Position numbers and translations under genes: made by a program. Source: Planococcus antarcticus DSM 14505 (GTDB lineage: Bacteria > Bacillota > Bacilli > Bacillales_A > Planococcaceae). Taken from it: 64,000 nt of DNA. The notes below the pieces were generated by a model. It had not been told where the DNA came from. It ran no database searches and saw only the letters and a list, made by a program, of their open reading frames with translations. The stretch's first letter is position 1. Every line of letters begins with the position of its first letter. Shown here in pieces: positions 27,200-63,085 of this stretch. The stretch spans positions 2,670,501 through 2,734,500 of the forward strand of contig NZ_CP016534.2 in the NCBI RefSeq assembly GCF_001687565.2, read 5' to 3'.

Positions 27200-27532
27200 T
27201 TATGATAAATGAAACGAATCGTCATAAAGCGGCTTCATATGCAAATCATATTCTTTTTTCGCTTCTTCTATGTCGTAGATCTTACCCGGATGTCCAGGAC
27301 TGCTCATTTGTTCCACTTGTTCATGAACCAAATCCGCAAAATATTTTCCGCAGGCAACATCATTTGGATACTTCGCCTTTACTTTAGCTACTAGCTCTTC
27401 ATCGAGTATCTGATTGAATGCGTGATACATTGCCGCGTTGACAATCGTCAATGCCTTTTTGGAAGCATAGGACACGATATAATAATTTCCGTACCGGTCC
27501 TTCAGCAAATCTCTCTTTGCTACAATTTCCAT
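27200..27532 (-). CDS. Hypothetical 110-residue protein
   Basis: A soluble protein with no signal peptide and no family I can name. Visible features are an N-terminal beta-like stretch (MEIVAKRDLLKDRYGNYYIVSYAS), a helical core (LTIVNAAMYHAFNQILDEELVAKVKAKYP) and a charged tail. I set the start at ATG 27532, which has AAAGGAGG 8 nt upstream; the frame stays open for another 60 codons without a site. A clean terminator follows. Confidence 0.7.
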   Translation of the reverse strand: MEIVAKRDLLKDRYGNYYIVSYASKKALTIVNAAMYHAFNQILDEELVAKVKAKYPNDVACGKYFADLVHEQVEQMSSPGHPGKIYDIEEAKKEYDLHMKPLYDDSFHLS

Positions 27533-27798: not shown

Positions 27799-29085
27799 CT
27801 ATAAACGCAAAAACTGGATTCTTTCAGGTTTTTTCTTCATATCAAGGACGCCTTTTACATCAAAGACAATTCCACGTTGTCCAATCAATAAGTCTTCAAA
27901 TTGCTGCCAACCGCTTTCTTTATATGGCTTATGCGGAACTGCCAGAATAACTGCGTGCGCAGGCTTTAATTGCTGACGAGTTAGAAGTTCTGTTCCGTAA
28001 AAGCTTTCTGCATCTTCCGTGGAAGCATAAGGATCAGCTAATTGGACGTCCATGCCGTATTCTTTCAATTCCCGTACGATGTCGATCACTTTGGAGTTGC
28101 GCAGATCCGGAACATCCTCTTTGAAGGACAGCCCCAATACGATGACACGGCCATCAGCTGGATTGATATTTTCTTGAATCATCTTTTTTATCAGTGATTG
28201 TGCAACGAACCGGCCCATTCCTTCATTGATATTGCGTCCTGACAAAATCACCTCAGCGCTGTGGCCGACCAATTGCGATTTGTTCGCTAAATAAAGAGAT
28301 GCCAATTCGACTCCTTGTCCGCCCACTAAACCCGGTAAAGCTTTCACGAAATCACGTTTGCTTCCTGCTGTTTCCAGCACTTCCAGTGTATCGATTTTTA
28401 AGCGCTCACAAATTATCGCCAATTCGTTCATAAGCGCCACGTTGACATCAAGCTGGATGCTCTCAATCAATTTCGCAGTTTCAGCGACACGGATGGATGG
28501 GGCTTTATATATTCCACCACCAACGATACTGCCATATACCAGAGCCAAAAAATCTGTCACTTCTTTGTTTTGTCCGGCAACTACTTTTTTCGTTTTTGTG
28601 TAGCTGCTTTTTTTTCCTCCTGCCAGCACTCTTGGAGGAGAATAGCCGACAAAAAATTCTTTGCCACTCTCGTAGCCTGAATACTTCTCAAGCAGCGGGA
28701 TACACAGTTCTTCAGTCATTCCCGGTGCCACAATTGATTCGTAGACCACCACTGCGCCTTTTTTCATATGTTCCCCCACATATTTACTGGCTCTTTGCAA
28801 AGCGGATAAGTCAGGCATTTTATCTCCATCAATGGCTGACGGCACGGCAATAATGATAAAACCTGCTTCTTTTAAATCTGAAGGGTCAGCTGTAAAAACG
28901 ATAGTTGATTTTGCAAGTTCTTCACGGCCTATCTCATTAGTCTTATCCAGTCCCAGCGTTAAAGCTTGGATTCTTCCTGTACTTATATCGTAGCCGATGA
29001 CGGGATACTTTCGATTAAAGGCGGCCGCTATAGGCAATCCGACATACCCCAAACCGACTACTGCTATTTTTAAATTTTGCAACAT
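27799..29085 (-). CDS. UDP-sugar dehydrogenase homologue lacking catalytic residues
   Basis: A 428-residue protein with the full architecture of WecC/TviB-type nucleotide-sugar dehydrogenases: N-terminal Rossmann domain (IAVVGLGYVGLPIAAAF), central helical domain (ALMNELAIICERLKIDTLEVLETAGS) and C-terminal domain (VPDLRNSKVIDIVRELKEYG). The active site is eroded. The catalytic-cysteine motif GGHCIGVDPYYL reads GGQGVELASLYL (residues 255-266), so Cys is Gly258 and the Asp is Ala. ESTVYPG reads ESIVAPG, SPER reads SPPR, and IENxQRD reads IESIQLD. The frame is intact. It ends an operon with a BY-kinase. NAD binding is likely; oxidation to a uronate is not. It could be a regulatory or scaffold protein. 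Confidence 0.85.
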   Translation of the reverse strand: MLQNLKIAVVGLGYVGLPIAAAFNRKYPVIGYDISTGRIQALTLGLDKTNEIGREELAKSTIVFTADPSDLKEAGFIIIAVPSAIDGDKMPDLSALQRASKYVGEHMKKGAVVVYESIVAPGMTEELCIPLLEKYSGYESGKEFFVGYSPPRVLAGGKKSSYTKTKKVVAGQNKEVTDFLALVYGSIVGGGIYKAPSIRVAETAKLIESIQLDVNVALMNELAIICERLKIDTLEVLETAGSKRDFVKALPGLVGGQGVELASLYLANKSQLVGHSAEVILSGRNINEGMGRFVAQSLIKKMIQENINPADGRVIVLGLSFKEDVPDLRNSKVIDIVRELKEYGMDVQLADPYASTEDAESFYGTELLTRQQLKPAHAVILAVPHKPYKESGWQQFEDLLIGQRGIVFDVKGVLDMKKKPERIQFLRL

Positions 29086-29205
29086 GTTGACGTATGCCCC
29101 CCTTTTCCCGCTCTTTTCAATGAACTTTCTGGATTGGCCACGTAGCTGTTACGCCACCGCTTATTTCTCAGTGGCTGAAGACAATATGTGCTACTCCAGA
29201 GGCGA

Positions 29206-29718
29206 TCAAAGCAAATTCTCTTTTTCTCTCAATGAAGTAATCAAAATAGGTTGGCCATTTGAGTTTAATGCCAGCTTCCACGAAATCACATCATCTACTT
29301 TGTTGTTGATATGCAGGTTGATTGCAAAAGACTTGAGACGGTCAAAATGGGGAATTTTGCTGCCTGCGAAAACAAATCGTGTCTGTGGATGCTTATAGAT
29401 TTTTTCAAGTGTATTTAAGTCATAGGCATATGATTTTAAATTCCCTTGATGGTCTAATCCACACGAAATCCCACCGATTTCATCCGCAAATCCACTGATG
29501 CTTTCAACAGTTCCTATTTCCAAGCTGCCCGATAGCAGAGACACTGTGTTGTTTTCACAATAAGTCACTAGATGAATGGTATTCAGAGCATACGGATAGA
29601 TTTTGTTTAGAGAAGAGTGCTGTACGATTATGTCATCATTTTGAAATGGAAGATCTCTTCCGAAATTATAGACTTCCTCTCCAAAACGAAACTCAGTAGA
29701 GTATTTTTCTGCTCCCAT
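29206..29718 (-). CDS. Short, degenerate sugar-transfer-associated ATP-grasp protein
   Basis: At 170 residues it matches only the C-terminal half of the sugar-transfer-associated ATP-grasp family (PF14397-like, usually about 300 or more residues). YALNTIHLVTYCENN parallels the SLNTIRIVT segment, GGISCGLDHQG the GGI-GID-G segment, and YKHPQTRFVFAGSKIPHFDRL the HPDTG..F.G..IP.WD segment. The terminal WDVAI...GPVLIEGN motif reads WKLALNSNGQPILITSLREKEN, losing the metal-binding acid and Asn. The frame has its own RBS (AAAGGGGTGAG) and starts 6 nt after the SDR stop, so it is a defined gene rather than a broken one. Family assignment is by my own alignment. Confidence 0.6.
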   Translation of the reverse strand: MGAEKYSTEFRFGEEVYNFGRDLPFQNDDIIVQHSSLNKIYPYALNTIHLVTYCENNTVSLLSGSLEIGTVESISGFADEIGGISCGLDHQGNLKSYAYDLNTLEKIYKHPQTRFVFAGSKIPHFDRLKSFAINLHINNKVDDVISWKLALNSNGQPILITSLREKENLL

Positions 29719-29724
29719 TTACTC

Positions 29725-30678
29725 TCACCCCTTTGTTCTTTCTTTTTTAATAATCGAAATAACCAGTTCCCGCGCCTCTTTTTTAGGATTTTTTTTCAAT
29801 TGTTTCAGTAGACGTGCCAATTCTATTTGGCTGATTCCCGTCTGTTTTTTAGGTCTGATTCGTACAACCGCGTCTTTTTGATGGAATGAACTCTCTTTAC
29901 CTAATCTTATGTTTGTCTCTCCAGCCTGAAGTATCTGTTGTGCCGTATAGACAACTGGCGCTTTCTGCTCGAACAAGTGACCAGATCTCTTGGATAATTG
30001 TTTGTCATGAAGGAGTGTTTCAGGTGATCGAAAAATTGTGTACTGTGTCGAACTAGTTGTTGAAACACTTTCCACGGTCATTTCCGCTAGTCTTTTGACT
30101 GCTTCCTTGAAATTACGCGGCTTAGCAGCTTGTTCGGAGGAAACCATTACAAAAGTATTGACTCGATAGCCGTTTGCCGCTTCGGCGATATTATAAGTGC
30201 CGAAAACATGAACACAGAGGGCTTCAGTTGTCTTCTCTTCTGCAACATCGAGTTGCTGATGGCCATCTGTATGGTATACGATATCCGGTTTATACCGCCC
30301 GACTATTTCAAAAATCCTTTTTTTATCTTGAATGTCTACAACAATTGGAATAATTTCTGCATGACTCCCCACCCGCTTTTGTAGCTGACTCTCAACGGTA
30401 TAGATAGACTTCGGCCCATCTCCAAGCAGCAAAATTCTGGCTGGTTGATATTGAATGAGCTGACGGCTGATTTCTGAACCAATCCCCCCACCAGCCCCAG
30501 TAATCATGACGGTTTTTCCTGTTAGGTGTAGCGCTTTCGGCATAGCCGCATGCTCTAGTTTTTCTTCGAAATTTTCAAATCCAATCAGAACGAATGTGCG
30601 AAAACGGCGAAAAGCGATAAGAAAAGGTACCAGGGATCGATGAAAAATTTCAAGTACATGCTGCTTATCCAACTTCAT
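29725..30678 (-). CDS. CapD/FlaA1-type SDR homologue lacking the catalytic triad
   Basis: A 317-residue protein related to nucleotide-sugar 4,6-dehydratases. The NAD fold is intact (LTGKTVMITGAGGGIGSEISRQL; VVDIQDKKRIFEIVGRYKPDIVYH; HVFGTYNIAEAANGYRV). The active-site segment STDKAVNPTNVMGATKR reads SSEQAAKPRNFKEAVKR, so the TDK catalytic residues become S-E-Q. The AAAYKHVPL segment reads TDGHQQLDV, and the substrate loop RFGNVLGSRGS is replaced by FRSPETLLHDKQ. It lacks the four membrane helices of CapD. RBS AAAGGGAG precedes the ATG. It is third in the BY-kinase operon. Function as a dehydratase is improbable. Confidence 0.8.
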   Translation of the reverse strand: MKLDKQHVLEIFHRSLVPFLIAFRRFRTFVLIGFENFEEKLEHAAMPKALHLTGKTVMITGAGGGIGSEISRQLIQYQPARILLLGDGPKSIYTVESQLQKRVGSHAEIIPIVVDIQDKKRIFEIVGRYKPDIVYHTDGHQQLDVAEEKTTEALCVHVFGTYNIAEAANGYRVNTFVMVSSEQAAKPRNFKEAVKRLAEMTVESVSTTSSTQYTIFRSPETLLHDKQLSKRSGHLFEQKAPVVYTAQQILQAGETNIRLGKESSFHQKDAVVRIRPKKQTGISQIELARLLKQLKKNPKKEARELVISIIKKERTKG

Positions 30679-30702
30679 CCCTGTTCTCCCTTTCCTGTCG
30701 AA

Positions 30703-31407
30703 TCAACTAAATTGACTATCGTAATTATGATAATAATAATTTTCTTTATTCATCGGATAATTATTCAAGACAACCCCTAAAATAAAAGCTTTTGCAGTTG
30801 CCAAAGAATCTCGTGCTTTTTCAACACTTATTTTTTCTGATTTGCCGGTATTGACCACCAGCACTGTACCGTCGCATTTATTTGCAAGAATTTTGGAATC
30901 GGTTACGGAGAGGATAGGTGGCGAGTCGAAAAGCACGTAATCGTAGAGTCCTCGCATTTCCTCAATCAATTCATCCAACGCATCAGACTCCAGCAACTCC
31001 GCTGGATTTGGAGGAATTTGTCCGCTCATCAGCAAATCCAGATTTTGAATGCCGCTCGCTTTTACCGATTGCTTGAGTTTGCCTTTTCTTATCAATAAAT
31101 TGGACAGGCCAATATTGTTGCCGAGCTCAAAAGTCCGGTATAAAGTTGGACGTCGCATGTCTGCATCAATCAGCAACACTTTTTTGCCCGTTTCGGCAAA
31201 AACAATAGCCATATTCGCTGCAGTCGTCGACTTTCCTTCTTCCTTTGAAGCGGACGTGAACAGGATAACTTTTGAATCCAAGCCGGGAGTCGAGAAGTTA
31301 ATATTGGTTCGAATTGTACGGTATTGTTCCGCTGCAATCGATTGTGGATTAGTACGAGCCACCAATTTTCGCGGCATTAACCTTTTTGTCTTTTTCATTG
31401 CCCGCAT
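30703..31407 (-). CDS. BY-kinase (CpsD/YwqD-type tyrosine-protein kinase)
   Basis: A 234-residue bacterial tyrosine kinase. The P-loop is SASKEEGKSTTAANMAIVF; Walker A-prime is KVLLIDADMRRPTL; Walker B is YDYVLFDSPPIL. The C-terminal tyrosine cluster NYYYHNYDSQFS is the usual autophosphorylation tail. It needs the adjacent Wzz-like protein for activation and normally controls polysaccharide export and UDP-sugar dehydrogenases. The gene overlaps the upstream adaptor gene by 59 nt in another frame; AGAAGGA precedes ATG 31407. Confidence 0.93.
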   Translation of the reverse strand: MRAMKKTKRLMPRKLVARTNPQSIAAEQYRTIRTNINFSTPGLDSKVILFTSASKEEGKSTTAANMAIVFAETGKKVLLIDADMRRPTLYRTFELGNNIGLSNLLIRKGKLKQSVKASGIQNLDLLMSGQIPPNPAELLESDALDELIEEMRGLYDYVLFDSPPILSVTDSKILANKCDGTVLVVNTGKSEKISVEKARDSLATAKAFILGVVLNNYPMNKENYYYHNYDSQFS

Positions 31408-32137
31408 GTAGATCCTTCTCCAATCTGTCTGTTAGATTTAATGGCTTTTCCATTTTCAAATTGCTGTCCACTGGACTGACGACACCTAAAATCCGAAGTC
31501 CCGCCATTTCTTCGATATCTTCTTCAGAACGGACTGTTGTATTCAATTGCTCCAGGATTAACGTGATGCCCATCCCAAAAACCAAACCGACGATGGCCCC
31601 AATGGCCATGTTGAAAATAGGATCCGGGCGAATTGGCTTCGGACTTCCGGTTGTCTCTGCTGCAGCCAAGATACTGACATTGTCTACTTTCATCATTTGC
31701 TGAATTTCTTCTTGGAACACCTTGGCTGTCGTATTGGCAATCAGTACTGCCTGCTCCATAGAAGAATCTTCAACCGATAAGCTGACCACTTGAGAACTTT
31801 CAATATTATTGACAGTGGTCCGCTCGGTCAATGTTTGGACCGTTTCTTTCAACTGCAATTCCTCAATCACATTGGCCAATATTGCCGGACTTTTTATAAT
31901 AACGTTGTAAGTTCCGATCAATTGAAGATTCGTATCGATATCGAGACTGTCGAAATCCTGGTTGCTGACTGTGTTTTGATTGATTAGAATCTGAGTTGTT
32001 GCCTTGTAAACAGGCTTCATAATGGTGTAGCTAGCGACAGCACTAAAGACAATAAAAGCCAAAGTAACAAGGATGATCAAAGCCTTTCTTTTTTGCATCG
32101 CTTTTAGGAATTTATTCAGATTGAATGTACTCTCCAT
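31349..32137 (-). CDS. Wzz-type polysaccharide co-polymerase / kinase activator (CpsC/YwqC)
   Basis: A 262-residue membrane protein with two membrane helices (IILVTLAFIVFSAVASYTIM near residue 20-40 and FNMAIGAIVGLVFGMGITLIL near 175-195) enclosing an outer Wzz domain. The typical PIRPDP proline motif precedes the second helix. The cytoplasmic tail should activate the BY-kinase. It is the first gene of the operon. Neither glycosyltransferases, flippase, polymerase nor a phosphatase gene lie beside it. Confidence 0.92.
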   Translation of the reverse strand: MESTFNLNKFLKAMQKRKALIILVTLAFIVFSAVASYTIMKPVYKATTQILINQNTVSNQDFDSLDIDTNLQLIGTYNVIIKSPAILANVIEELQLKETVQTLTERTTVNNIESSQVVSLSVEDSSMEQAVLIANTTAKVFQEEIQQMMKVDNVSILAAAETTGSPKPIRPDPIFNMAIGAIVGLVFGMGITLILEQLNTTVRSEEDIEEMAGLRILGVVSPVDSNLKMEKPLNLTDRLEKDLHAGNEKDKKVNAAKIGGSY

Positions 32138-32227: not shown

Positions 32228-32711
32228 CTATATAAGTTGAACTAAAGAAACATCTTTTTCAACTTAACGAAGTAGGGAAACGAAGAAATCGCTCCAGACG
32301 GATGCTTTGGGCCCACAAGATGTGGGTCATGCAACTGGCGCGACAACTTCTCGCCAGTTGCCAAGGACATCGCCCCAGCCTTCTCGTCGCAAGCTACTGC
32401 GGGGTCTCTTGGATGTCGCTTCACTGCTCCAGCAGCAAAGTCATTGAACAATGAGAGTTCGGGCAATGGCTTTGCGACGAAGCTAGCATAGCGATGCAGG
32501 AGCACATCTTTGCCCTTCGCCGTCTTGCGCTCTTTCTTCTAAGCTTCCTTGAGTAACAAAACGGCAGAACACAGAGCAAACCAGCGGAGACTGTTATGAG
32601 AGCGGCGTAAGTGACATGGAAAGTGACAGCCCGAGTTCGTTCGGCGCCAGCTCTTAGCAGCTGATTGGCGGAACATTAACAGGCCGGAATCATTCGTTCA
32701 ACTTATATAAT
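32228..32711. repeat. Non-coding element with imperfect terminal inverted repeats and internal hairpins
   Basis: About 480 nt bounded by TATATAAGTTGAAC on the left (32229-32242) and GTTCAAACTTATATA on the right (32696-32710), inverted repeats differing by one inserted A. Inside are CCCACA-AGA-TGTGGG, a perfect 10-bp hairpin GCAACTGGCG/CGCCAGTTGC and a GACATCG...GATGTCG pair around CCCCAG/GCGGGGTC. GC content is higher than the flanks. It has no credible gene. It may be a MITE-like or dispersed intergenic repeat upstream of the cps-like operon. Confidence 0.6.
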
Positions 32712-32921: not shown

Positions 32922-33617
32922 TTACTCCAATATGAACTTATAGCCAAAGCCCCTCACCGTCTGGATATATTTGGGGTTGGCCGGATCTTCTTCGATTTTT
33001 CTTCGTAAATTGCTAATGTGTACTTTAACTGTTTGCACGTCTCCCTCGGAATAATAGCCCCACACCTGATCATATAATTGTTCAGCAGTCCAAACGCGGT
33101 TGGGCGTCTGAGCCAACAGCAGCAATAATTGAAATTCCTTGTGGTAAAGCTTTACCGGGTTTCCTGCAATGTATAGTTCACAGGCGTCTACATGAATATG
33201 GAGATCTTCGTATTTCAGGATGGTCAGCCGATCTTCCTCGCCGCTCCTCCAGCCATTTCTCCGAAGAATTGCACGGATACGAGCTTCTAGTTCATTGAAA
33301 TCAAAGGGTTTGGTGATGTAGTCATCGCCTCCTGCTTCGAGTCCTTGAATTTTATAAACCAGCTCTTTCCGGTAGCTAACAAATAGGATAGGCAAAGTTG
33401 TTTTCAAACGAATTTTCTCGCATACTTCTAGCCCATTCATCCCTGGCATTTCGACATCCAGCAAAATAAGATCCGGTTTTTCTTTCTCCAGCAGATCCAA
33501 AGCTTGAAAGCCGTCTTCTGCCTGAAGGACGTCGTAACCTTTCTTGAGTAAGAACAAACGCATCAATTCACGGATTCCTTCATCGTCTTCTACAATCATT
33601 ATAGTTGCAGCATTCAT
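32922..33617 (-). CDS. OmpR/PhoB-family response regulator
   Basis: A 231-residue regulator. The receiver domain (residues about 5-120) has the acidic pair VEDDEG, phosphoacceptor Asp in DLILLDVEMPGMNG, a Ser/Thr switch region in PILFVSYRKE, and Lys in YITKPFDFNEL. The winged-helix domain (about 130-230) has VWTAEQLYDQVWGY and VHISNLRRKIEEDP, ending in TVRGFGYKF. It lies 18 nt downstream of the hybrid kinase gene, so the two are cotranscribed and form the likely pair. Confidence 0.95.
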   Translation of the reverse strand: MNAATIMIVEDDEGIRELMRLFLLKKGYDVLQAEDGFQALDLLEKEKPDLILLDVEMPGMNGLEVCEKIRLKTTLPILFVSYRKELVYKIQGLEAGGDDYITKPFDFNELEARIRAILRRNGWRSGEEDRLTILKYEDLHIHVDACELYIAGNPVKLYHKEFQLLLLLAQTPNRVWTAEQLYDQVWGYYSEGDVQTVKVHISNLRRKIEEDPANPKYIQTVRGFGYKFILE

Positions 33618-53237: not shown

Positions 53238-53268
53238 AAAACTGCAGTTCCTCAACGGATTTCTGCAG
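53238..53268 (-). terminator. Terminator of tagGH
   Basis: On the minus strand two CTGCAG arms 15 nt apart, the second followed by TTTTTTT. It overlaps the end of tagH. Confidence 0.7.
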
Positions 53269-54085
53269 GTTTTTCATCTTTCTTGGATTGCCGATCGAGT
53301 GCACGGTTCCGATATTTTTTTTTGTCAGCTTTTGATAGAGCTTTGTATTCTTCCAGAAAAGATTCATATTTGGCTAAGACTTCTTTGGTGGCGCCGTACT
53401 CTTTGACCACACCAAACTCCAGCCACAAAATCTGATCACAAAATCTTCTCATCTGTGAAATCGAATGGCTGACAAAGAACATCGTTTTCCCTTTTTCTTT
53501 GAACTCCATCATCTTGTCCAGACTTTTTTCAGAGAATGCTTTATCTCCTACGGACAAAGCTTCATCTACTATCAGGATATCGGGATTGACGCGGACTGAA
53601 ATGGAAAAGCCCAAACGTGATTTCATTCCGCTCGAATAGGTTTTCACTGGCTGGTCGATAAACTTTTCCAGCTCAGCAAACTCAATGATTTCTTCTTCCA
53701 TGGCGCCAATTTCCTTTTCGGAAAATCCAAGCATCAATAATTTGAGTTCGATGTTCTCGCGCCCTGATAACTTGCTGTCCAGTCCAGCATTCACCGCAAT
53801 CAAAGCGACATTGCCATCGCTTGTCACTTGACCATTTGTCGTTGGAATAACACCTGCGATTATATTCGCCAAGGTCGATTTTCCTGATCCATTAATGCCA
53901 ACGAGCCCGACAATCGAGCCCTGCTCCACATCAAAAGAGACATTCTGCAAAGCGAAAAAATCCTCCCCATAATCTTTATAAGGAATCAGTAAATCAAGAA
54001 TTCGTTCAGATTGTTTTTTATATAATTTATAACGCTTAGAAACGTTTTTGACTTCCACTGAATTAACCAAGAGTTTCACTTCCAA
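53252..54085 (-). CDS. tagH: Teichoic acid ABC exporter ATP-binding protein TagH
   Basis: A 277-residue ATPase of the polysaccharide-exporter type (TagH, RfbE/KpsT-like). Walker A is GINGSGKST, the divergent signature is YSSGMKSRLGFS and Walker B is ILIVDEALSVGD. KRYKLYKKQSERILDLLIPYK is typical of TagH starts. It is shorter than B. subtilis TagH (527 residues), lacking its C-terminal extracytoplasmic part. It follows tagG by 3 nt. Function: export of wall teichoic acid. Confidence 0.93.
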   Translation of the reverse strand: MEVKLLVNSVEVKNVSKRYKLYKKQSERILDLLIPYKDYGEDFFALQNVSFDVEQGSIVGLVGINGSGKSTLANIIAGVIPTTNGQVTSDGNVALIAVNAGLDSKLSGRENIELKLLMLGFSEKEIGAMEEEIIEFAELEKFIDQPVKTYSSGMKSRLGFSISVRVNPDILIVDEALSVGDKAFSEKSLDKMMEFKEKGKTMFFVSHSISQMRRFCDQILWLEFGVVKEYGATKEVLAKYESFLEEYKALSKADKKKYRNRALDRQSKKDEKPAEIR

Positions 54086-54088
54086 TTT

Positions 54089-54907
54089 TTATAAAAAGTC
54101 AATGAATTGACTTCTAAATTTCACATGAAGATAAGCACCTATAAGGAACGTGAGTGCGACCACTCCAACAAAATAAAGGGTATAGACAGGATTCTCAATA
54201 AAATACCAGCCTTCCCCAAGCAGCGAGTAACGGTAGCCTTCAATAACATAGTAGAACGGATTAAGTTTCATGAAGGGTTGCCATGAATCCGGCAGCAACG
54301 TCGGCGGCCATAAAATCGGCGACAAATACAACAGCATGCGCATGACCGACTGCAGTAGCATTTGAACGTCTCTGATGATGGTCGACAAAGTAGATGTAAT
54401 CAGAGAGAAACTGAATAAGAATACGAGCAGGCCAATTATATAGATAGGCAACTGCAAGTAATAGATGGAAATTGGGTACCCTAGAAACTGCAACATCACC
54501 ATTCCGATAGCTAATAATATCAGATGAGGGTAAAACTGTGCAAAGATTGTGTAATTCGGAATGACACTCATCGGGAAATTCATCTTGGAAAGCATCTTGA
54601 TTTTGCTGTAAATCGATTTGGATGATTTCATTACGCTGTTATTGATAAAGAACCACACTAGAATTCCAGCAAACATCCATTGAAAATATGGAATATCCCC
54701 AACAGCTTCTCGCTCCCGGATTCCAAAACCAAAAACAAACCAGTATATGAGAATTTGGATAGCCGGATTGATGATCTCCCAGGCTGCTCCCAGGTAATTG
54801 CCTCTTGTTAAACTGCGCAACTCATAAACAGACAATCGTTTAACTAAATGAAAGAATTTAACTTGCTCTTTGATAACTTTTATAGCTGATTTCATAGGTA
54901 GCCTCAC
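54089..54907 (-). CDS. tagG: Teichoic acid ABC exporter permease TagG
   Basis: A 272-residue ABC-2-type permease with six membrane helices. Diagnostic: RSLTRGNYLGAAWEIINPAIQILIYWFVFGFGIR, FLFSFSLITSTLSTIIRDVQMLLQSVMRMLLYLSPILWPP and LNPFYYVIEGYRYSLLG. It pairs with TagH to flip the undecaprenyl-linked polymer. It follows the TagF-like gene by 67 nt on the same strand. Confidence 0.94.
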   Translation of the reverse strand: MRLPMKSAIKVIKEQVKFFHLVKRLSVYELRSLTRGNYLGAAWEIINPAIQILIYWFVFGFGIREREAVGDIPYFQWMFAGILVWFFINNSVMKSSKSIYSKIKMLSKMNFPMSVIPNYTIFAQFYPHLILLAIGMVMLQFLGYPISIYYLQLPIYIIGLLVFLFSFSLITSTLSTIIRDVQMLLQSVMRMLLYLSPILWPPTLLPDSWQPFMKLNPFYYVIEGYRYSLLGEGWYFIENPVYTLYFVGVVALTFLIGAYLHVKFRSQFIDFL

Positions 54908-54974
54908 TTAATCACTTTTTATCTCGTTAAACCGCGAGCAATAGTTCTGCTGTTCGAAACTTAACTGGTATGCT

Positions 54975-56165
54975 CTACTTCAAAAATGCTTTTACTACCC
55001 GCTCCGTTGCCTGTCCATCTTCAAGAGAAGAAAAGCGGTCTTTAAACCCGGAGAAAGTTGGGCTCAACTGTATATTTGAATCCGCCGTTGCCTGAATTGC
55101 TTGGAAAAGTTCATTTTCCGTCTGTACAATTGGTCCGGGCGCATCTTTTTCGATGTCGATATAGAAGCCGCGCAGCTGGTCACGATAGTTCGCCAAATCA
55201 TACATAAAGAAAATGATCGGCCGGTCTAAAATCGCATAATCGAAAAAGACAGAAGAATAATCCGTTATCAGCAGATCAGAAGCTAAGTATAGATCGCGGA
55301 TATCTGGATAAAGTGATACATCATATACCATACCTTCATATGCCGAGAAATCAAAGTTTTCAGCTACCAGATAATGCATGCGGGATAGTAGCACCCATTC
55401 GTCACCGAATTCTTTCTTCCAATTTTCCAGATCAAATTGGAATTTAAACTTGTACTTTCCTTTTTGATAGAATTCATTGTCTCTCCAGGTAGGAGCATAG
55501 AGCATCACTTTTTTGTCTTCAGCAATCCCCAGATCCCTTTTCAGATTGCTGATCAATAGATCCGAATGACTAGTCAATACATCATTGCGGGGGTATCCGG
55601 ATTCAATGACTTTTCCATTATAGTGGAAAGCACGCCTAAAAATCTCAGTCGAATATGGATTCGGCGAAATGAGGTAATCCCATTTTTCTGATTCCAATGT
55701 AAAATTCTTTTTATACGACTCTGTCTCCGTATCAGGCATGTGGATTTCTTCGATATCCAGCCCTAGTTTTTTTAGAGGAGTTCCGTGCCACGTTTGAAGG
55801 TATACGGTACCTTTAGGCTTCGGCATCCACCTTGGCAGCCGGACATTGTTGACCCAGTACTCAGCCCGTGGAAATGTCCAGAACCAGGACATGGTGAACC
55901 TGCGAATATATGGCACGTTGAATTCTTCAAAAAGGCTGATTGCGCTCTTATCAACGCTCCAGAGAAGCTTGAATTCCGGATAATGTTCTTTCATGTATTC
56001 ATAGATGGCACGTGGATTGTCACTGAATTGTTTCGCGTGAAAACTTTCAAATACGACCAATTTTTTCTTTTTCGGAAGTTTTCCCAGTATCACAAAGACC
56101 GCCCGAAAAACCCTTCTTGTGTAGCTGCTATCTTTAAGACTTTTAACTTTTTGGATGAAATTCAA
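54975..56165 (-). CDS. CDP-glycerol glycerophosphotransferase (TagF/TagB family)
   Basis: A 396-residue membrane-associated enzyme that adds glycerol phosphate from CDP-glycerol to teichoic acid. Family motifs are QTWHGTPLKKLG, GYPRNDVL, MLYAPTWRDNEF, LLSRMHY and LLITDYSSVFFDYAILDRPIIFFMYD. The N-terminal extension of full-length TagF is missing, so it is a catalytic-domain-only form. The start is uncertain: TTG 56165 with AAGGTG 7 nt before seems best; the frame stays open to 56219. Confidence 0.88.
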   Translation of the reverse strand: MNFIQKVKSLKDSSYTRRVFRAVFVILGKLPKKKKLVVFESFHAKQFSDNPRAIYEYMKEHYPEFKLLWSVDKSAISLFEEFNVPYIRRFTMSWFWTFPRAEYWVNNVRLPRWMPKPKGTVYLQTWHGTPLKKLGLDIEEIHMPDTETESYKKNFTLESEKWDYLISPNPYSTEIFRRAFHYNGKVIESGYPRNDVLTSHSDLLISNLKRDLGIAEDKKVMLYAPTWRDNEFYQKGKYKFKFQFDLENWKKEFGDEWVLLSRMHYLVAENFDFSAYEGMVYDVSLYPDIRDLYLASDLLITDYSSVFFDYAILDRPIIFFMYDLANYRDQLRGFYIDIEKDAPGPIVQTENELFQAIQATADSNIQLSPTFSGFKDRFSSLEDGQATERVVKAFLK

Positions 56166-56426
56166 ATTATTCACCTTACTTCTTTCTTGAAAAACGGATT
56201 TGGCAGAAAATTTACACAAATAATGGGATCGCGCTTCTTTTTATTTTATACTGAAACGAAGAGTAGACCAAGTATATTAAAAAAACGCATCTTTTCCTTG
56301 ATAAATGCGTCTAATACCTCATACATACCTATATTTCCAATAGCTATTACAAATGATAACATATAAGATAGTATCATAGCATATTGTGAAATAAATCGAA
56401 AATAAGCACTTTTGGAGTGAACATAT
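56166..56426. other. Divergent intergenic region between the TagF-like gene and tagD
   Basis: AT-rich, about 260 nt, with no gene. It must carry promoters in both directions; TATAAG-like boxes lie near 56362, but no pair is convincing. Confidence 0.35.
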
Positions 56427-56819
56427 ATGAAGAAAGTAATAACTTATGGGACCTTTGACTTGATTCATCATGGCCATATAAATATATTAAAACGGGCAAA
56501 AGAGAACGGCGATTATTTAATCGTGGGCTTATCATCTGATGAGTTTAATGCGATTAAAGGCAAATCGGCCTATCATTCTTATGAAGAACGTAAATTGATA
56601 CTCGAGGCCATAAAATATGTTGATGAAGTAATTCCTGAGCACAATTGGGGCCAAAAAGTGACGGATATCAAAAGCTACAATGTAGATTTATTTATAATGG
56701 GTTCTGACTGGGAAAACAAATTCGATGAACTGAAAGACTATTGTGAAGTTCTTTACTTGCCGCGTACAGAAGGCATTTCGACTACAAAAATCAAAACAGA
56801 CCTTTACAATACCCGATGA
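56427..56819 (+). CDS. tagD: Glycerol-3-phosphate cytidylyltransferase TagD
   Basis: A 130-residue enzyme making CDP-glycerol from CTP and glycerol-3-phosphate. It has the nucleotidyltransferase motif GTFDLIHHGHINILKRA (HxGH), the RYVD-like YVDEVIPE segment and the C-terminal RTEGISTTKIK. Length is exactly typical. It provides the substrate for the two glycerophosphotransferases here. Its stop overlaps the tagB start (ATGA). Confidence 0.96.
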   Translation: MKKVITYGTFDLIHHGHINILKRAKENGDYLIVGLSSDEFNAIKGKSAYHSYEERKLILEAIKYVDEVIPEHNWGQKVTDIKSYNVDLFIMGSDWENKFDELKDYCEVLYLPRTEGISTTKIKTDLYNTR

Positions 56820-57984
56820 TTAAAGAAGTTGGAATTTCCATTTATCTATTCCTGTTCAAAATCTTGTTTACTCTGTTTAAGCTTTTCCCTATGAGAAATA
56901 AAACCGTCTTTCTGTCCTCTTTTGGCGATAATGCATTTTTTATCGCGAAGGAGTTATCGAAGGCTGAACAACATCAAATCATCTTCATCAACCAAGCCAA
57001 ATGCAAAATCGACTTTACTGCAGTTGCCACTGACAATAAGAAGATTTACAGCTTTGAAACGTCCAATATTACAGATACTTTTTTTCCATCTATCATTTGG
57101 CCACTTCCAAATATGTCTTTGTCGATAATTATGCAGGAGTTCTTTCAGTCATTAAATTCCGTAAAGAAGTGAAATGTATCCAACTTTGGCACGCAGCGGG
57201 GGCCATTAAGAAATTCGGTTGGAGCGATCCGGAAACTTCTGCCAGAAGCGAGCGGGCAAAGTTAAGATTTCAGCAAGTATATGATCGCTTTCAATACATT
57301 CCTGTTGGTTCACAGCAAATGGCGGATATTTTCTCTGAATCCTTTCATGTTGATCAAAGCCATTTTATCTACACAGGAGTTCCACAAACCGATTTTTACT
57401 TTGACCCGGATGCTAAAGAAAAAGCCTGCACTACGCTGATGGACTTATACCCGGTCATCGCCGGAAAAAAAGTGGTCTTGTATGCACCTACTTTCCGTAA
57501 AAATTCACTGCACAGCATGAAGGTGCAACTGGACGTGAAAGAGATCCTCGATAAGCTGGATGATCAGCATGTTTTGTTGATCAGGCTCCACCCCTCTATC
57601 AAAGAGGCCACTAATTTTACGGAGCATCCGCGCGTCCTGTTGGTCAACGACTACCCGCATCTCAGCGACTTGCTGATTGTCAGCGATATCTTGATCACTG
57701 ATTACTCGTCCATTCCGGTTGAATTTTCATTGCTCGGGAAAAAAATGATTTTCTTCACATATGACCTTGTGGATTACGGTAAAACTCAGGGAATTTGGGC
57801 AGAGAACAGCCTGTATTTTCCCGGTCCGATTGTAAAGACGACCAGCGAAGTAATAGAACATATTCTAGATCCCGAGATTGACCTCGAAAAAATCGATCAG
57901 TTCCGTAATCACTGGAATACATATTCGACAGGCCAAAGCACATGCCAACTCCTAACAGTCATTTACGACCCAAAAGATTTATAG
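56816..57984 (+). pseudogene. tagB: TagB glycerophosphotransferase, frameshifted in a T-run
   Basis: TagB primes poly(glycerol phosphate) by adding the first glycerol phosphate to the lipid-linked disaccharide. Frame 1 (56816 to about 57085) gives the N-terminal part ending SNITDTFF; frame 2 resumes at once with SIYHLATSKYVFVDNYAG and continues KCIQLWHAAGAIKKFGW, TGVPQTDFYF, VVLYAPTFRKNSLH and ILITDYSSIPVEFSLLGKKMIFFTYD. The break is at a run of seven T (57079-57085); eight T would give one frame of about 389 residues, like B. subtilis TagB (381). A real mutation, a slippery tract or a sequencing error are all possible. Confidence 0.9.
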
Positions 57985-58135: not shown

Positions 58136-58251
58136 AGGAGTATAAAACTTACGGTTACTTTTCCACTGCTTTCGGATAACTCATCTATATCCTAAATGTC
58201 TCCATACATACGCGGGCTTGGCCCAGCATATTAACTAAAGGGGTGAGAAAA

Positions 58252-59274
58252 GTGCTTTCTAAATGGATTAAAGTCTCAGTAGCCGTATTACTAATCCTGT
58301 TTACCGTGCTATCCTTCTCTGGTCAGTCGCAAGCAGCGAGTTCCACCTATGTCACAAAAGGCAGCACGACCAGCAAAGTGGTCGCTCTGACTTTCGATGA
58401 CGGTTCAGACGGCACAAACATCAACAAGATTCTGGATATCCTGTCAGCCAATAATGTCAAAGCGACGTTCTTTTTAACAGGTTCCGGGGCCAAAAACCAC
58501 CCTACCTGGATCAAGAACATTTCAGCCAAAGGCCACCAGCTTGGCAACCACTCTTATTCGCATCCTGACTTTACCAAACTGACTGCCGCAAAAATGAAGA
58601 TCGAACTTGATACCGCTGAAACCACGATCAAAGGGTTAACCGGGAAAACCACCAAACCGATTTTCAGAGCTCCATTTGGTGCATCCAATGCTGCAGTCTT
58701 GAAGGCGGTCGGGGATGCCGGATATACCCATACGATTCAGTGGAATATCGACACTGTTGACTGGAAAGGGGTCTCATCCACACAAATCACCGACAAAGTC
58801 CTGAATAATATTGTGCCAGGATCTATTGTTTTGATGCATACTGGTGCAGGCGCATCCGGAACTCCAGGTGCTTTGCCGGGAATGATCAGCAAATTGAAAG
58901 CTAAGGGATATAAATTCGTCACTGTCTCTGAATTATTGAAATTGCCTGCAGCACCAGTCGGCAACCAGTATACAGTTAAAGCCGGAGATACACTTTACAG
59001 CATTGCCAAAAAATACAATGTAACTGTTGCAGCGCTGGCTAAAGCCAACAACATTATCAATTATAATCTGATCCAGGTCGGACAGGTATTGACGATTCCG
59101 AACCAAACCACTGCGCCGCCTGTCACTTCTGTCAAATACACGGTCAAGGCTGGAGATACATTATACAGCATTGCCCGCACCTACAATACGACCGTTTCCA
59201 TAATAGCTGCCGCCAATAAGATCACCAATGTCAATGCAATTAGTGTAGGACAAGTGCTGGTGATACCAAGATAG
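58252..59274 (+). CDS. Secreted polysaccharide deacetylase with two LysM repeats
   Basis: A 340-residue exported enzyme. The signal peptide (VAVLLILFTVLSFSGQSQAA) is followed by a NodB domain at about 40-230: VALTFDDGSD with the catalytic Asp pair, GNHSYSHPDF with the metal His pair, FRAPFGASNAAV, and SIVLMHTGAG. Two LysM repeats follow (YTVKAGDTLYSIAKKYN and YTVKAGDTLYSIARTYN) for peptidoglycan binding. It should deacetylate wall N-acetylated sugars. GTG 58252 has AAAGGGG at 8 nt; the GTG at 58243 adjoins that site. Confidence 0.93.
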   Translation: MLSKWIKVSVAVLLILFTVLSFSGQSQAASSTYVTKGSTTSKVVALTFDDGSDGTNINKILDILSANNVKATFFLTGSGAKNHPTWIKNISAKGHQLGNHSYSHPDFTKLTAAKMKIELDTAETTIKGLTGKTTKPIFRAPFGASNAAVLKAVGDAGYTHTIQWNIDTVDWKGVSSTQITDKVLNNIVPGSIVLMHTGAGASGTPGALPGMISKLKAKGYKFVTVSELLKLPAAPVGNQYTVKAGDTLYSIAKKYNVTVAALAKANNIINYNLIQVGQVLTIPNQTTAPPVTSVKYTVKAGDTLYSIARTYNTTVSIIAAANKITNVNAISVGQVLVIPR

Positions 59275-59312
59275 CAGGAGAGCTTACTCTCTAAAATGCC
59301 AAAAACCAAATG

Positions 59313-59348
59313 AAAAGGAGCTGGAATCTATTTTTCCAGTTCCTTTTC
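59313..59348. terminator. Terminator between the deacetylase and DUF4126 genes
   Basis: AAGGAGCTGGAA and TTCCAGTTCCTT pair with one mismatch around a short loop and are followed by TTTTC. Confidence 0.75.
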
Positions 59349-59905
59349 TATATGGCTTTTGGCTTGTGCAGAAACCTGCGGTATAGCTTGAAGATCATAA
59401 ACGCCATGCCAAGCAAAAAGAAAATCGCCAGAACGGGTGCAAGAAATATCAGAATCGGTGCTATTGTAGCCGTAGCATCTTCTGCCACAGAAACGGCCGG
59501 ACTCATCAAAGCAGTTTCACTCACTCCTTTGACCGCTGTAATAGTTGCATGTGAAGCTGTAGCTACTCCTCCGCCACCAATGATGGCAATGCTCCATTCT
59601 AGAAAAGGACTCATATCTCCGATAAAAGAAGCAGTCAACAGGATGCCTGCCAAAGCGGCAATTGGCGTCGAAATCATTTTCATGAACGATCCTACAGCTG
59701 GAATATAATTGACTGCGATTTCAAAAAGCGTGGCTACAGCAAATGCGATGATTGCCGGTGTGCTGCCGATCCAACTGAAACCTTCTGAAAGCGTCAACCA
59801 GTCCACATGGACGAATATTCCCGTTATCAGCAATGGCGTAAAAATTCTAAACCCCACAGTTGCGCTTAATGCCAGTCCGATACAGATTGCAAGAATAGTT
59901 TCCAT
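59348..59905 (-). CDS. DUF4126 membrane protein
   Basis: A 185-residue protein with about five hydrophobic helices. The N terminus ETILAICIGLALSATVGFRIFTPLLI, the NYIPAVGSFMKMISTPIAALAG segment and the SAVAEDA-like VSVAEDATATIAPI segment fit DUF4126. Function unknown. It converges with the deacetylase gene and lies downstream of gtaB with the same orientation, 134 nt apart. Confidence 0.85.
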   Translation of the reverse strand: METILAICIGLALSATVGFRIFTPLLITGIFVHVDWLTLSEGFSWIGSTPAIIAFAVATLFEIAVNYIPAVGSFMKMISTPIAALAGILLTASFIGDMSPFLEWSIAIIGGGGVATASHATITAVKGVSETALMSPAVSVAEDATATIAPILIFLAPVLAIFFLLGMAFMIFKLYRRFLHKPKAI

Positions 59906-60039
59906 CGCGTTGACCTCCCCTGTCTTCGTGTTCTTTCAGTTATACATGAGCCGAATCTTCCCTATTGCTCATGCACTTGCTTACCCCTACTGCATATAAA
60001 ACCCATGTCTATTTTTATCCGGTTGTTCCATTTGCATCT

Positions 60040-60923
60040 TCATAAGAGATCCCGGTCTTTTTCCTCCTGCAAAATCTTTTCGAACAGCTTTAACAACGGC
60101 TCTTTCAGCTCTGGACGCTTTAAGGCGAACTCTATCGTCGTTTCGATAAATCCATACTTTTCCCCCACATCATACCTGCGCCCTTCAAACTCAAAGGCAT
60201 AAACCCTTTGAATTTCATTTAATTTTTGGATGGAATCCGTCAGCTGGATCTCCCCTCTGCTCCAAATTGGTGTTCACCCAAAAAACCAAATATTTTAGGA
60301 GTCAAAATATAACGCCCCATAATCGCGTAATTGGAAGGAGCTGTTCCCAGTGCCGGTTTTTCCACAAAATTTCTTACTTTCATCAACTGACCATCCATCG
60401 ACAACGGATCGATAATTCCATATCGACAGGTTTCTTCTACTGGAACCTGTTGAACACCAACAATCGAGTTTCCGGTTTTATCGAATTGTTTCATCAGCTG
60501 AGCAAGGCATGGCTCTTCATTTTCTACGATATCATCACCCAACAATACAGCAAAAGCCTCATCGCCGATAAAGTTGCGGGCCGACCAAATCGCATGCCCC
60601 AGGCCAAGCGGATGCTTTTGGCGAATATAGTGGATTTCCAGCTTCGACGTTTGAAGAATAGTTTCCAGCATGTCTAGCTTCCCTTTTGCCAGCAATGTAG
60701 CCTCCAGTTCATGCGCGTGGTCAAAATGATCTTCGATTGCCCGCTTCCCTTTCCCTGTGACAATAATGATGCTTTCAATTCCAGATGCGATTGCTTCCTC
60801 CACAATATATTGGATAGTGGGCTTGTCCACGATTGGCAGCATCTCTTTTGGCATAGCTTTAGTAGCAGGAAGAAATCGTGTTCCCAGACCAGCAGCTGGA
60901 ATGATGGCTTTTCTGATGGACAT
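60040..60923 (-). pseudogene. gtaB: UTP-glucose-1-phosphate uridylyltransferase, frameshifted in a G-run
   Basis: GtaB/GalU makes UDP-glucose for teichoic acid glucosylation and glycolipids. Residues 1-223 read normally ([70 protein letters not shown]), then RSS-stop at 60240. The next frame continues [37 protein letters not shown] to a stop at 60040. The break is at four G (60252-60255 on the minus strand); five G would give one 294-residue protein, the normal GtaB size. Confidence 0.92.
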
Positions 60924-61187
60924 TGGTGGTCCCTCCTTTTTTCATACACTCTTTTTTATGTCCATCATACCATTTAACAGAACATTCGGAACCAAACAAT
61001 CACATCTGACTATAAGGTGGAAACGATGCACTTTCCTATTTGTTCTCTGCAACTAGCAGAAATGTTAAATGGCATTATAATTATTTTTAAATTTCAGGTT
61101 ATATAATTATTTATACCTATTTTAAATAAGTGTAACCACGACTATAATAATCTAGATATTCCATTTATTATACACAGGAGGAAGAAA
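60924..61187. other. Divergent intergenic region before the acidic surface protein
   Basis: AT-rich (especially 61080-61150) and without a gene. It should carry the promoters of gtaB and of the surface protein operon; several TATAAT-like boxes occur (for example near 61100 and 61143), so the active one cannot be chosen. Confidence 0.4.
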
Positions 61188-62384
61188 ATGAAACGTTTAG
61201 CTGTATTTTTATTAGTTTTAGGGTTTGCATTTAGTATGATGCCCCTCTCGGCATTTGCCATCAAATCGGATGATGCTAAATTTGACCAATTTTTAGCAGA
61301 AATCAAGTGGGAGAAACAAGATTACCTTAACTATCTGGAAAGTAAAGACTGGTCGTTGAGCGAATTTGACACAATCGACGAATTAGGTACCCCGTTGACT
61401 GAGGAAAACATTCAAGCTCTAACAGGAAAACTGGATCTATCTCGAACAGACATGAATGAATTGCTTTACGAATATGGAGACTTGGAGTATGGCCAGGATG
61501 TTCTTGATGGAATTTACTTGATTTTCATTGAAGACCTTGAATACTACATTGAATTTTATTTGGAAGACTTTATCGGAACTCCAATTGATGACACTAACTT
61601 GCAGCAGCTCTTAGAGGACTATGGTTTTGCTTCTGAGAAAGAACTGGAAGCATTTTTGCAGGAGTATGATGATTCCATCTCATATCACGAATCTATAGAA
61701 GATTTAGAGTCCTCCATTATTTTCTATCAAGACCCTGGCGATTTTGAAATCGATATGGATGGCCTCTTCACTGAATTGGGTTTGACTGAAGAAGAAATTG
61801 AAAATTTGGTCGCTCACATGGAAACATTGGATTATGAAGATCCTGCATTCGAACAAAAACTAATGGAATTAAGTGATCGCATGATGGCAGTCGGCGAATT
61901 TGAAACTGCTGATGAGCTGACGGCAGAACAGATTGCTGAGATTATGGATATCTACAGCGATATGACCGATGTGCTTGAATTGAAAACAACTTATTACTTT
62001 GTAAAAGACGGCGAAAAAACAGCTGTTTCATTAGCTACCCTCATGACGCTTGAATCAACTGAAGGCGCTGATTTATTGATTGAGATTTACAACTTGAAAG
62101 ATGTATTCCTCGCAGACATCCTTTTGACGGCTGAAATGTTTGGATCTGACTTGATCGCAGACACTGGAACTGACTTGAAGACCGTTGAGAAAGTCATTTC
62201 TGCACCGCCTGTGGTACAAAAACCGGTGACAACTGCTCCAACAACACCATCTACAACCCAAACTGTGAAAGGTGGAAAATTACCGGCTACAGCCTCTGAT
62301 TTCGTAGCAAATGCTGTTTTCGGACTGGCCTTGCTTCTGACAGGCATCGCTTTATTCCGCCGAATCAGAGCTGAAGAAGTCTGA
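61188..62384 (+). CDS. Processed acidic surface protein with LPATA sorting signal
   Basis: A 398-residue secreted protein. It has a signal peptide (LAVFLLVLGFAFSMMPLSAFA), a very acidic helical body rich in Glu, Asp and Leu, a Pro/Thr linker (VVQKPVTTAPTTPSTTQ), and a C-terminal sorting region KLPATAS, hydrophobic helix, then FRRIRAEEV. This matches the 'processed acidic surface protein' family (TIGR04383-type) that travels with its own sortase, which follows here with a 1-nt overlap. The product is likely cleaved between Thr and Ala and anchored. Its role is unknown. Confidence 0.9.
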   Translation: MKRLAVFLLVLGFAFSMMPLSAFAIKSDDAKFDQFLAEIKWEKQDYLNYLESKDWSLSEFDTIDELGTPLTEENIQALTGKLDLSRTDMNELLYEYGDLEYGQDVLDGIYLIFIEDLEYYIEFYLEDFIGTPIDDTNLQQLLEDYGFASEKELEAFLQEYDDSISYHESIEDLESSIIFYQDPGDFEIDMDGLFTELGLTEEEIENLVAHMETLDYEDPAFEQKLMELSDRMMAVGEFETADELTAEQIAEIMDIYSDMTDVLELKTTYYFVKDGEKTAVSLATLMTLESTEGADLLIEIYNLKDVFLADILLTAEMFGSDLIADTGTDLKTVEKVISAPPVVQKPVTTAPTTPSTTQTVKGGKLPATASDFVANAVFGLALLLTGIALFRRIRAEEV

Positions 62385-63085
62385 TGATGAAGCACAAACA
62401 GGAAAAAAGAAGAAGCAAAAAACCGCTTCTTCTTACTCTATCCATCGTCCTTATCATACTTGGTCTATGGTTCAGCACTACCAGCACGGCAACTTTCGTC
62501 AAAGGTTATATGCTTTATAAAACTGGAAACGTCGAAGCAAAAGACTTCAGCAATAAACCAGAAACCCAGTCTCCTGCAATTGCCGAAGAACTGGAAATTT
62601 CTAAGGAACCTGAAGTATCTGTGGAACCTGTTGAACAGTTAACCACTGATTCAGTGCTTCCTTCCAAATATCCGGAAACACCCGAAATCGGCGACTTGAT
62701 GGGCGAACTGATTATCCCAAAGCTTGAAGCCAGCCTGCCGATTATACACGGTACGGATGAAGACGAGCTGGAAAAAGGCGTCGGACATTTTGCCCAAAGT
62801 GTTATGCCAGGAGAAAATGACAATTCTGTATTGTCTGGACACCGCGATACGGTCTTCCGTGAGCTTGGCGAAGTTGGAAAAGGCGATACCTTGATTGTTA
62901 AAACCCATTCCGGTGTCTTCACGTACAAAGTCCGCCAAGTGCGAATAGTCGACGAAGACGATCGAACTGTTATTGTTCCAAAACCCAAAGCCACTTTAAC
63001 TGTTTCCACCTGCTATCCGTTTGATTACGTCGGATATGCTCCAGAGCGTTATATATTAGTAGCAGATTTGGTGTCTAGCGAGTAA
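62384..63085 (+). CDS. srtD: Class D sortase
   Basis: A 233-residue transpeptidase with an N-terminal membrane helix (LLLTLSIVLIILGLWF), an acidic linker and the sortase barrel from about residue 105. The catalytic triad is visible as His153 (SGHRDT), Cys210 (TVSTCYPF) and Arg222 (APERYIL). The ATG overlaps the surface protein stop, so the two are coupled and this is surely the dedicated sortase for the LPATA substrate. A terminator follows. Confidence 0.93.
   Translation: MMKHKQEKRRSKKPLLLTLSIVLIILGLWFSTTSTATFVKGYMLYKTGNVEAKDFSNKPETQSPAIAEELEISKEPEVSVEPVEQLTTDSVLPSKYPETPEIGDLMGELIIPKLEASLPIIHGTDEDELEKGVGHFAQSVMPGENDNSVLSGHRDTVFRELGEVGKGDTLIVKTHSGVFTYKVRQVRIVDEDDRTVIVPKPKATLTVSTCYPFDYVGYAPERYILVADLVSSE

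Follow-up and report, generated by a model that had tools for sequence, protein, structure and literature searches.

In Bacillus subtilis the genes ywqC, ywqD and ywqF, whose products are TkmA, PtkA and Ugd, form one operon. YwqF is a target of bacterial tyrosine kinases (BY-kinases), and CapAB of Staphylococcus aureus phosphorylates CapE and CapM, with CapO cited as a further target (PMC6441080). EcpK of Myxococcus xanthus and HfsB of Caulobacter crescentus are BY-pseudokinases that have lost catalysis and for which a scaffold role is proposed (PMC12004946). In this study we focus on an operon of Planococcus antarcticus DSM 14505 (genome of 3.8 Mb), lying in a stretch of 64,000 nucleotides of contig NZ_CP016534.2 (positions 2,670,501 to 2,734,500) that was analysed as a whole and is called the window below. 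The operon encodes a Wzz-type adaptor, a BY-kinase and three relatives of sugar-nucleotide enzymes: a member of the short-chain dehydrogenase/reductase (SDR) family, a piece of an ATP-grasp protein and a UDP-glucose dehydrogenase (UGD)-like protein.

The comparison of this five-gene cassette with 46 genomes of the genus gives good support to the view that the last three genes are non-catalytic yet under selection. The most economical reading suggests that proteins resembling kinase substrates have been retained to regulate the kinase or Wzz, and we propose with moderate confidence that the operon may provide the Wzz/BY-kinase complex with a regulatory module devoid of catalysis. This reading draws on sequence comparison for the inactivation, the selection, the gene order and the absence of pathway genes. 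Genomes and loci are given G and L numbers where they must be told apart, and a UGD or CapD is called active when its catalytic residues are intact by alignment.

All cassette genes are on the minus strand, where the order from 33617 to 27799 is response regulator, Wzz-type adaptor, BY-kinase, SDR, ATP-grasp piece and UGD-like gene (Table 1). The first-pass annotation of the window had the coordinates and frames of the five genes right, and three uninterrupted genes do follow wzz and the kinase. The wzz and kinase genes overlap by 59 bp in all 11 cassette loci, window included (starts set by alignment); the gaps that follow are 24-33 bp (kinase to SDR), 6-97 bp (SDR to ATP-grasp piece) and 66-254 bp (ATP-grasp piece to UGD). 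A purine-rich stretch upstream of the ATG of each of the three dead genes recurs in 11/11 loci and agrees with the ribosome sites reported earlier. According to the gene lists of the window, the operon contains no glycosyltransferase, flippase, polymerase or phosphatase gene, and neither it nor the other cassette loci hold the flippase, polymerase and priming transferase of a Wzx/Wzy locus. The first-pass annotation was thus correct on this absence for the operon and not for its surroundings, since a teichoic-acid-type gene set lies 21-26 kb away inside the window. Teichoic-acid-type genes are found at 53252-57984 and 63168-63944: those of an ABC transporter pair and a cytidylyltransferase, and three that are CDP-glycerol glycerophosphotransferase-like. 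Two further wzz/kinase loci are found elsewhere in the same genome.

The UGD-like protein carries PF03721, PF00984 and PF03720 in order and above cut-off, i.e. the three domains of the fold family, and Cap5O is among its nearest solved structures. Cys260, Asp264 and Glu141 (nucleophile, general base and loop Glu, respectively) are described as the invariant catalytic residues of UGD (PMC4794789); their equivalents are kept in none of the 11 cassette UGDs, which therefore lack the residues of an active enzyme. The catalytic loop GGHCIGVDP has become GGQGVELAS in the window protein, and the NAD motif GLGYVG, D33 and R329 are kept. Among 129 positions invariant in 15 UGDs of the genus with intact residues, 84 are retained in 11/11 cassette proteins and 18 are lost in all of them; eight of these 18 fall within catalytic loop 242-265 (hypergeometric P 9e-4; the loop was delimited once the losses were known). 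All 11 cassette UGDs have the three NAD glycines, D33, R329 and the loop glycines G255 and G256; the Lys204 and Asn208 equivalents are present in 10, and Thr118 is lost in eight.

The pseudo-SDR has neither the N-terminal membrane half nor the T-D-K triad, which we take to play the catalytic role in CapD/PglF 4,6-dehydratases, and it retains the GAGGxIG cofactor motif. Its Polysacc_synt_2 match is limited to profile positions 1-163 of 293, so that a full substrate-binding domain is absent. Searching a 5.8-billion-protein set, with the 7992 candidates sharing most words scored, gave 352 matches, and the best 120 of them include 36 full-length SDRs, the window's own counted (295-324 residues, 98-100% query coverage, at least 46% identity), separated from ordinary CapD proteins by a score drop from 376 to 229 bits. 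None of these 36 has the triad, S-E-Q and similar residues being found instead, and 32 keep all four cofactor glycines; the triad is present in the nine CapDs of the genus that were read. An AlphaFold model (pLDDT 81, pTM 0.69) displays a long N-terminal helix, a Rossmann core and C-terminal helices, with PglF 5bju as best PDB match (E 1.2e-12); PglF variants T395, D396 and K397 are named in the titles of structure matches. In a tree that used 11 of the 36 SDRs, the pseudo-SDRs form one clade on a long branch. At the kinase locus of other species, a full CapD of 617-629 residues followed by a 395-474-residue protein is found in 8/8 loci, seven of which also carry an aminotransferase-like gene (Pfam-checked in L049 only). 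Descent of the pseudo-SDR in place from this CapD, suggested by position and best matches, was not retained, the tree having left the root unplaced.

The ATP-grasp piece matches ATPgrasp_ST over positions 117-250 of 278, that is the C-terminal half only; the N-terminal half, presumably the one that binds ATP, is gone. Compared with four full-length proteins, WK replaces WD in 12/12 loci and E-x-N is gone; we take this D and E-x-N to be metal ligands in the sugar-transfer-associated family. A search beyond the genus gave 23 matches, itself included, all of 167-170 residues, and the six with a source name are all from Planococcus; a motif scan found WK in 22 of these 23 proteins and left one unmatched. 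The piece belongs to the sugar-transfer ATP-grasps, of which only relatives about 25-28% identical were found, none a clear donor. An origin from the gene that follows CapD in other species was rejected: the 474-residue protein of L049 has no Pfam match, and no BLAST match at E 1e-4 to any cassette protein. The model of the piece has a pLDDT of 67.6 and no PDB match at E <=0.001, many of its top 50 being ATP-grasp proteins. Thus the alignments bear out the earlier statement that all three proteins lack catalytic residues, and its companion, that all keep their folds, holds for the UGD and for the Rossmann part of the SDR and is less sure for the ATP-grasp piece; the SDR and the ATP-grasp piece are truncated too.

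The five-gene order is kept in 11/46 genomes, i.e. in all those with a full-length SDR orthologue (10 genomes besides that of the window, at 51-67% identity). Ratios of non-synonymous to synonymous change (dN/dS) were obtained by Nei-Gojobori counts, the cassette figures coming from 11 of 55 possible pairs: 0.014-0.068 for the kinase, 0.038-0.100 for wzz, 0.166-0.294 for the SDR, 0.044-0.099 for the ATP-grasp piece (one saturated pair set aside) and 0.057-0.124 for the UGD. Loss of catalytic residues under purifying selection is the mark of a pseudoenzyme, and on the alignments the three genes appear to bear it. As for the signs that would have spoken against the first-pass annotation, no SDR, ATP-grasp piece or UGD of the 10 other cassette species has regained the full catalytic set, all ratios are far below 1, and the searches brought up no active clade that uses other catalytic residues. 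Intact catalytic residues are found outside the cassette only, in the same-locus CapD of other species and in the UGD sister of G024.

It is highly improbable that the three genes are slowly decaying relics carried by a useful wzz/kinase pair. The first-pass annotation had argued against simple decay from uninterrupted frames and ribosome sites. The frames are intact in 11 of the 12 genomes with the locus, and decay is disfavoured because dN/dS is well below 1, near the values of the working neighbours for the UGD and the ATP-grasp piece, and because the listed SDR relatives are full-length in 36/36 cases. The twelfth genome, that of P. versutus (G045), has wzz, the kinase and the ATP-grasp piece, an SDR broken with 12 stops and no UGD trace within a 16-kb stretch at the locus; it fits decay as an instance, and it also shows what real decay looks like. 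The higher ratios of the SDR would also agree with decay, as would the fact that most cassette genomes no longer have the flippase and the polymerase-like gene belonging to the UGD cluster.

That the proteins are still enzymes with altered chemistry, such as a UGD-fold oxidoreductase or epimerase without need of the Cys, is unlikely. The cofactor sites would allow it, as the NAD glycines persist in the cassette UGDs and in two related groups described below (groups A-C), the Lys204 and Asn208 equivalents in nearly all cassette UGDs, and the SDR cofactor glycines in most listed SDRs. The active sites speak against it: nucleophile, general base and Glu141 are lost jointly in 11/11 cassette UGDs and Thr118 in most of them, no listed SDR has its triad, the ATP-grasp piece is without its ATP half and metal ligands, and the five groups of dead UGDs carry five different loop sequences, unlike one new active site.

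The two upstream genes of the cassette keep the motifs of their families. The adaptor has both PF02706 and PF13807 above cut-off, i.e. a Wzz domain with GNVR, and shares 80.5-92% identity with its counterparts at the 10 other cassette loci. The kinase looks intact by alignment: Walker A, A' and B residues and the YYYHNY tail are kept in 12/12 kinases of the locus, and K59, S60, T61, D81, D83 and D161 are invariant among 17 aligned kinases. Orthologues with at least 65% identity are present in 39/46 genomes. The products of the operon would be a Wzz adaptor in the membrane, a BY-kinase that looks intact and three non-catalytic proteins retained for binding rather than for chemistry. NAD and a nucleotide sugar may be bound by the pseudo-UGD and perhaps by the Rossmann domain of the pseudo-SDR, and the pseudo-enzymes could associate with the kinase or be phosphorylated by it, as non-productive kin of CapO/UGD and of CapE-type SDRs. 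The output might be a tuning of Wzz/kinase assembly, or of kinase action on the other polysaccharide loci of the genome, and the upstream two-component system would govern it.

The UGD has a history beyond this operon. Relatives of the cassette UGD at other loci are 40-61% identical to it, and a tree of 46 UGDs places 31 proteins, the 11 of the cassette among them, in one clade (support 98/99). Five groups of dead UGDs can be told apart: group A, the 11 cassette proteins (Cys to G or E; dN/dS as above); group B in G003, G006, G012 and G023 (Cys to R; 0.063-0.089); group C in G025, G030 and G032 (Cys to S; 0.127, one pair); group D in G009, G026, G029 and G039 (Cys to G; 0.058-0.121); and group E, with eight read (Cys to P, A, S or T; 0.043-0.127). 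For these ratios, pairs were dropped if the synonymous difference was >=0.65 or dS <=0.05; UGDs with intact residues gave 0.025-0.282 (6 pairs). A dead member is present in 36/46 genomes, 30 of the 36 sequences having been read; the six others (G004, G015, G018, G035, G040, G043) were assigned to group E on frame length and a weak Pfam score, supplemented in two cases by a match of 46%. The member is intact in G024, whose UGD lies inside the clade at 61% identity, decayed in G011, and was not found in eight genomes. The decayed copy (L086:7575-8318) has an internal stop and an open piece 58.9% identical to the window UGD, and adjoins intact polymerase-like and flippase genes. The dead UGDs make up one side of a weakly supported branch (82/53) where the long branches of groups D and E meet, as the tool warned, and the tree does not decide between one and several losses of the Cys.

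Because the dead UGD is genus-wide and elsewhere lies in a separate cluster, an explanation by this operon alone is insufficient. Where one contig holds both, that polysaccharide cluster is about 25-53 kb from the kinase. A sugar transferase gene follows the UGD in L055 and L058 (group B), L062, L066 and L087 (E), L082 (D) and L053 (G024), with PF02397 confirmed in L058, L082, L062 and L053, and these clusters also carry a MurJ-type flippase (PF03023 in the two checked). A polymerase-like gene, without Pfam match and named from its place, accompanies all of groups B and E as well as G024, G025 and G011; it is missing in group D and G032, and a remnant is left in G030. In two group B clusters, 350-367-residue proteins stand between two glycosyltransferase-like genes (L055:4733-5836 and L058:5421-6473); the one scanned, from L055, has no Pfam match. 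These seven loci would fit a pseudo-UGD that serves the adjoining sugar transferase by regulating the priming step and that came to lie beside the kinase secondarily in the cassette clade; since no sugar transferase adjoins the UGD in the cassette clade, the listed group C loci or L085 of group D, we consider this reading very unlikely.

Genes of the pathway seem to have been lost from the cassette clade, whose UGD lies in the operon of the kinase. The polymerase-like gene is absent from 10/11 cassette genomes (close to its capsule locus, G037 has a relative of 45% identity), and the MurJ-type flippase from 9/11 at E 1e-60, with 46% relatives elsewhere in G031 and G044. The window contains relatives of the genes that flank the dead-UGD clusters (Table 1), with no UGD, sugar transferase or flippase gene among them, and the place used by group E is taken, in the three cassette genomes inspected there (G000, G007 and G016), by another polysaccharide cluster with its own wzz and kinase. 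Next to the genes that flank the group D cluster, a GalU-type gene at 60064-60923 appears split over two frames (matching 1-224 and 192-287 of a relative) and is probably a relic.

Alternatively, the pseudo-enzymes could join oligomers of active paralogues (UGD, CapD) and inhibit or tune them, the kinase being a mere neighbour. UGD subunits do share active-site residues (PMC4794789), CapE is hexameric with an inter-subunit latch (PMC6441080), a CapD-length frame of 612-648 residues exists in 46/46 genomes (residues read in nine), and all 11 cassette genomes have further UGD genes, one in the window's own genome (L047) having intact residues. We regard this as quite unlikely, given that only 3/11 cassette genomes (G000, G016, G037) have, at E 1e-60, an intact-residue UGD of 48-50% identity, with one of 45% in two more (G031, G044), and that the membrane half and a good part of the C-terminal domain are missing from the pseudo-SDR.

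Several observations weigh against the regulatory module. Conserved tyrosines gave no clear signal as phosphosites in the alignment, and S. aureus CapD, the nearer relative of the pseudo-SDR, is not phosphorylated by CapAB (PMC6441080). The SDR is clearly less constrained than its neighbours, and the set can come apart, since in P. versutus wzz, the kinase and the ATP-grasp piece persist although neither an intact SDR nor a UGD is left there. The NAD motif itself is partly lost in groups D and E, so that NAD sensing cannot be a function common to all groups. In groups B-E the dead UGD is away from this kinase and often beside a sugar transferase, which could therefore be its partner. Co-occurrence speaks for the module: the UGD lineage is present in 38/39 genomes with a kinase orthologue and 0/7 without, counts that include the six unread group E genes and are uncorrected for shared descent. 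The hybrid histidine kinase (E 1e-150) is likewise found in 38/39 kinase genomes, over its C-terminal part only in G016, and also in G002 and G021. G045, with its broken SDR, is the sole exception for both; as this is one event and related genomes are not independent, it gives only a hint of a link. G011 points in the opposite direction, its UGD having decayed although kinase and histidine kinase are present. A transcriptome study of growth in the cold, dealing with Rhodococcus and Polaromonas, gave no information on these genes.

With these points in mind, we propose tentatively, as a possibility that falls short of probable, that the genus-wide inactivated UGD lineage may be a non-catalytic regulatory subunit of the Wzz/BY-kinase machine which in one clade outlived its cluster, entered the kinase operon, was joined there by two other pseudo-enzymes and may signal the supply of nucleotide sugars to other polysaccharide loci. 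The genus offers a graded series, from the intact UGD of G024 through group B, where losses concern chiefly the Cys and its neighbours, to groups A, D and E, which have lost most of the active site; a second, non-catalytic role of UGD in BY-kinase or polysaccharide control can thus be tested.

Table 1. Features of the window discussed in the text.
Feature	Position	Strand	Basis or remark
Pseudo-UGD, CapO/Cap5O-type NDP-sugar dehydrogenase, 428 aa	27799..29085	-	three UDPG_MGDP_dh domains
Pseudo-ATP-grasp piece, sugar-transfer-associated family, 170 aa	29206..29718	-	Pfam ATPgrasp_ST
Pseudo-SDR, CapD/PglF/FlaA1 family, 317 aa	29725..30678	-	Pfam Polysacc_synt_2, alignment
BY-kinase, CapB/YwqD type, 234 aa	30703..31407	-	Pfam, alignment
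Wzz/CapA-type transmembrane adaptor, 262 aa	31349..32137	-	PF02706 and GNVR
Response regulator, Response_reg and Trans_reg_C	32922..33617	-	directly upstream of cassette; in 11/11 loci
Hybrid 7TMR-DISM histidine kinase, 1104 aa	33636..36950	-	Pfam; homologue search of genus genomes
Relatives of genes flanking dead-UGD clusters (groups B, C, D)	58243..63085		window gene list, BLAST, Pfam

Around the cassette, response regulator and wzz are 784 bp apart in the window, against 159-369 bp at the 10 other loci. This gap contains, in the window, an interspersed repeat of about 420 bp (32260-32680), with at least 47 matching pieces in the window's genome, its own copy counted (40 of 96 candidates scored); this insertion looks specific to the window genome because the gap is longer there than in the other loci. 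A DUF4870-type gene adjoins wzz on the response-regulator side in L054 (9406-9861; Pfam-checked in L054 only), and genes of similar size occupy that place in the other-species loci L049, L050, L051, L067, L068 and L070. Cassette genomes leave too little room there for such a gene, or, as in the window, the space is filled by the repeat. Downstream of the cassette, at 27200-27532, lies a gene for a conserved protein of about 109 residues without Pfam match, whose listed 170-residue frame begins 60 residues too early compared with most relatives.

The operon resembles YwqC-YwqD-YwqF in that a nucleotide-sugar dehydrogenase is grouped with an adaptor and a BY-kinase; YwqF is active, whereas the protein here is without the Cys, Asp and Glu141 equivalents and two dead genes lie between it and the kinase. 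Among the reported targets of S. aureus CapAB (PMC6441080) are an SDR dehydratase and a UDP-ManNAc dehydrogenase, enzymes of the two classes to which the pseudo-SDR and the pseudo-UGD correspond; there the enzymes are active in capsule synthesis and CapD is left unphosphorylated, and here the homologues are dead. Campylobacter jejuni PglF and the FlaA1-type dehydratases have the Rossmann fold and family in common with the pseudo-SDR, which lacks their triad and full substrate domain as well as the membrane half of CapD-type proteins. Among the open-access papers listed by our searches, none described a BY-kinase of intact appearance accompanied by precursor enzymes that are dead yet retained. 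Conceptually, the closest parallel would be the EcpK pseudokinase with roles reversed: EcpK and HfsB are dead kinases in a live pathway, and here an intact-looking kinase stands with dead enzyme homologues. BY-pseudokinases are already described in polysaccharide systems (PMC12004946), and the dead precursor enzymes would be the new part here; if the tentative proposal of a genus-wide regulatory UGD lineage is true, the cassette would be a signalling module built entirely from dead biosynthetic enzymes.

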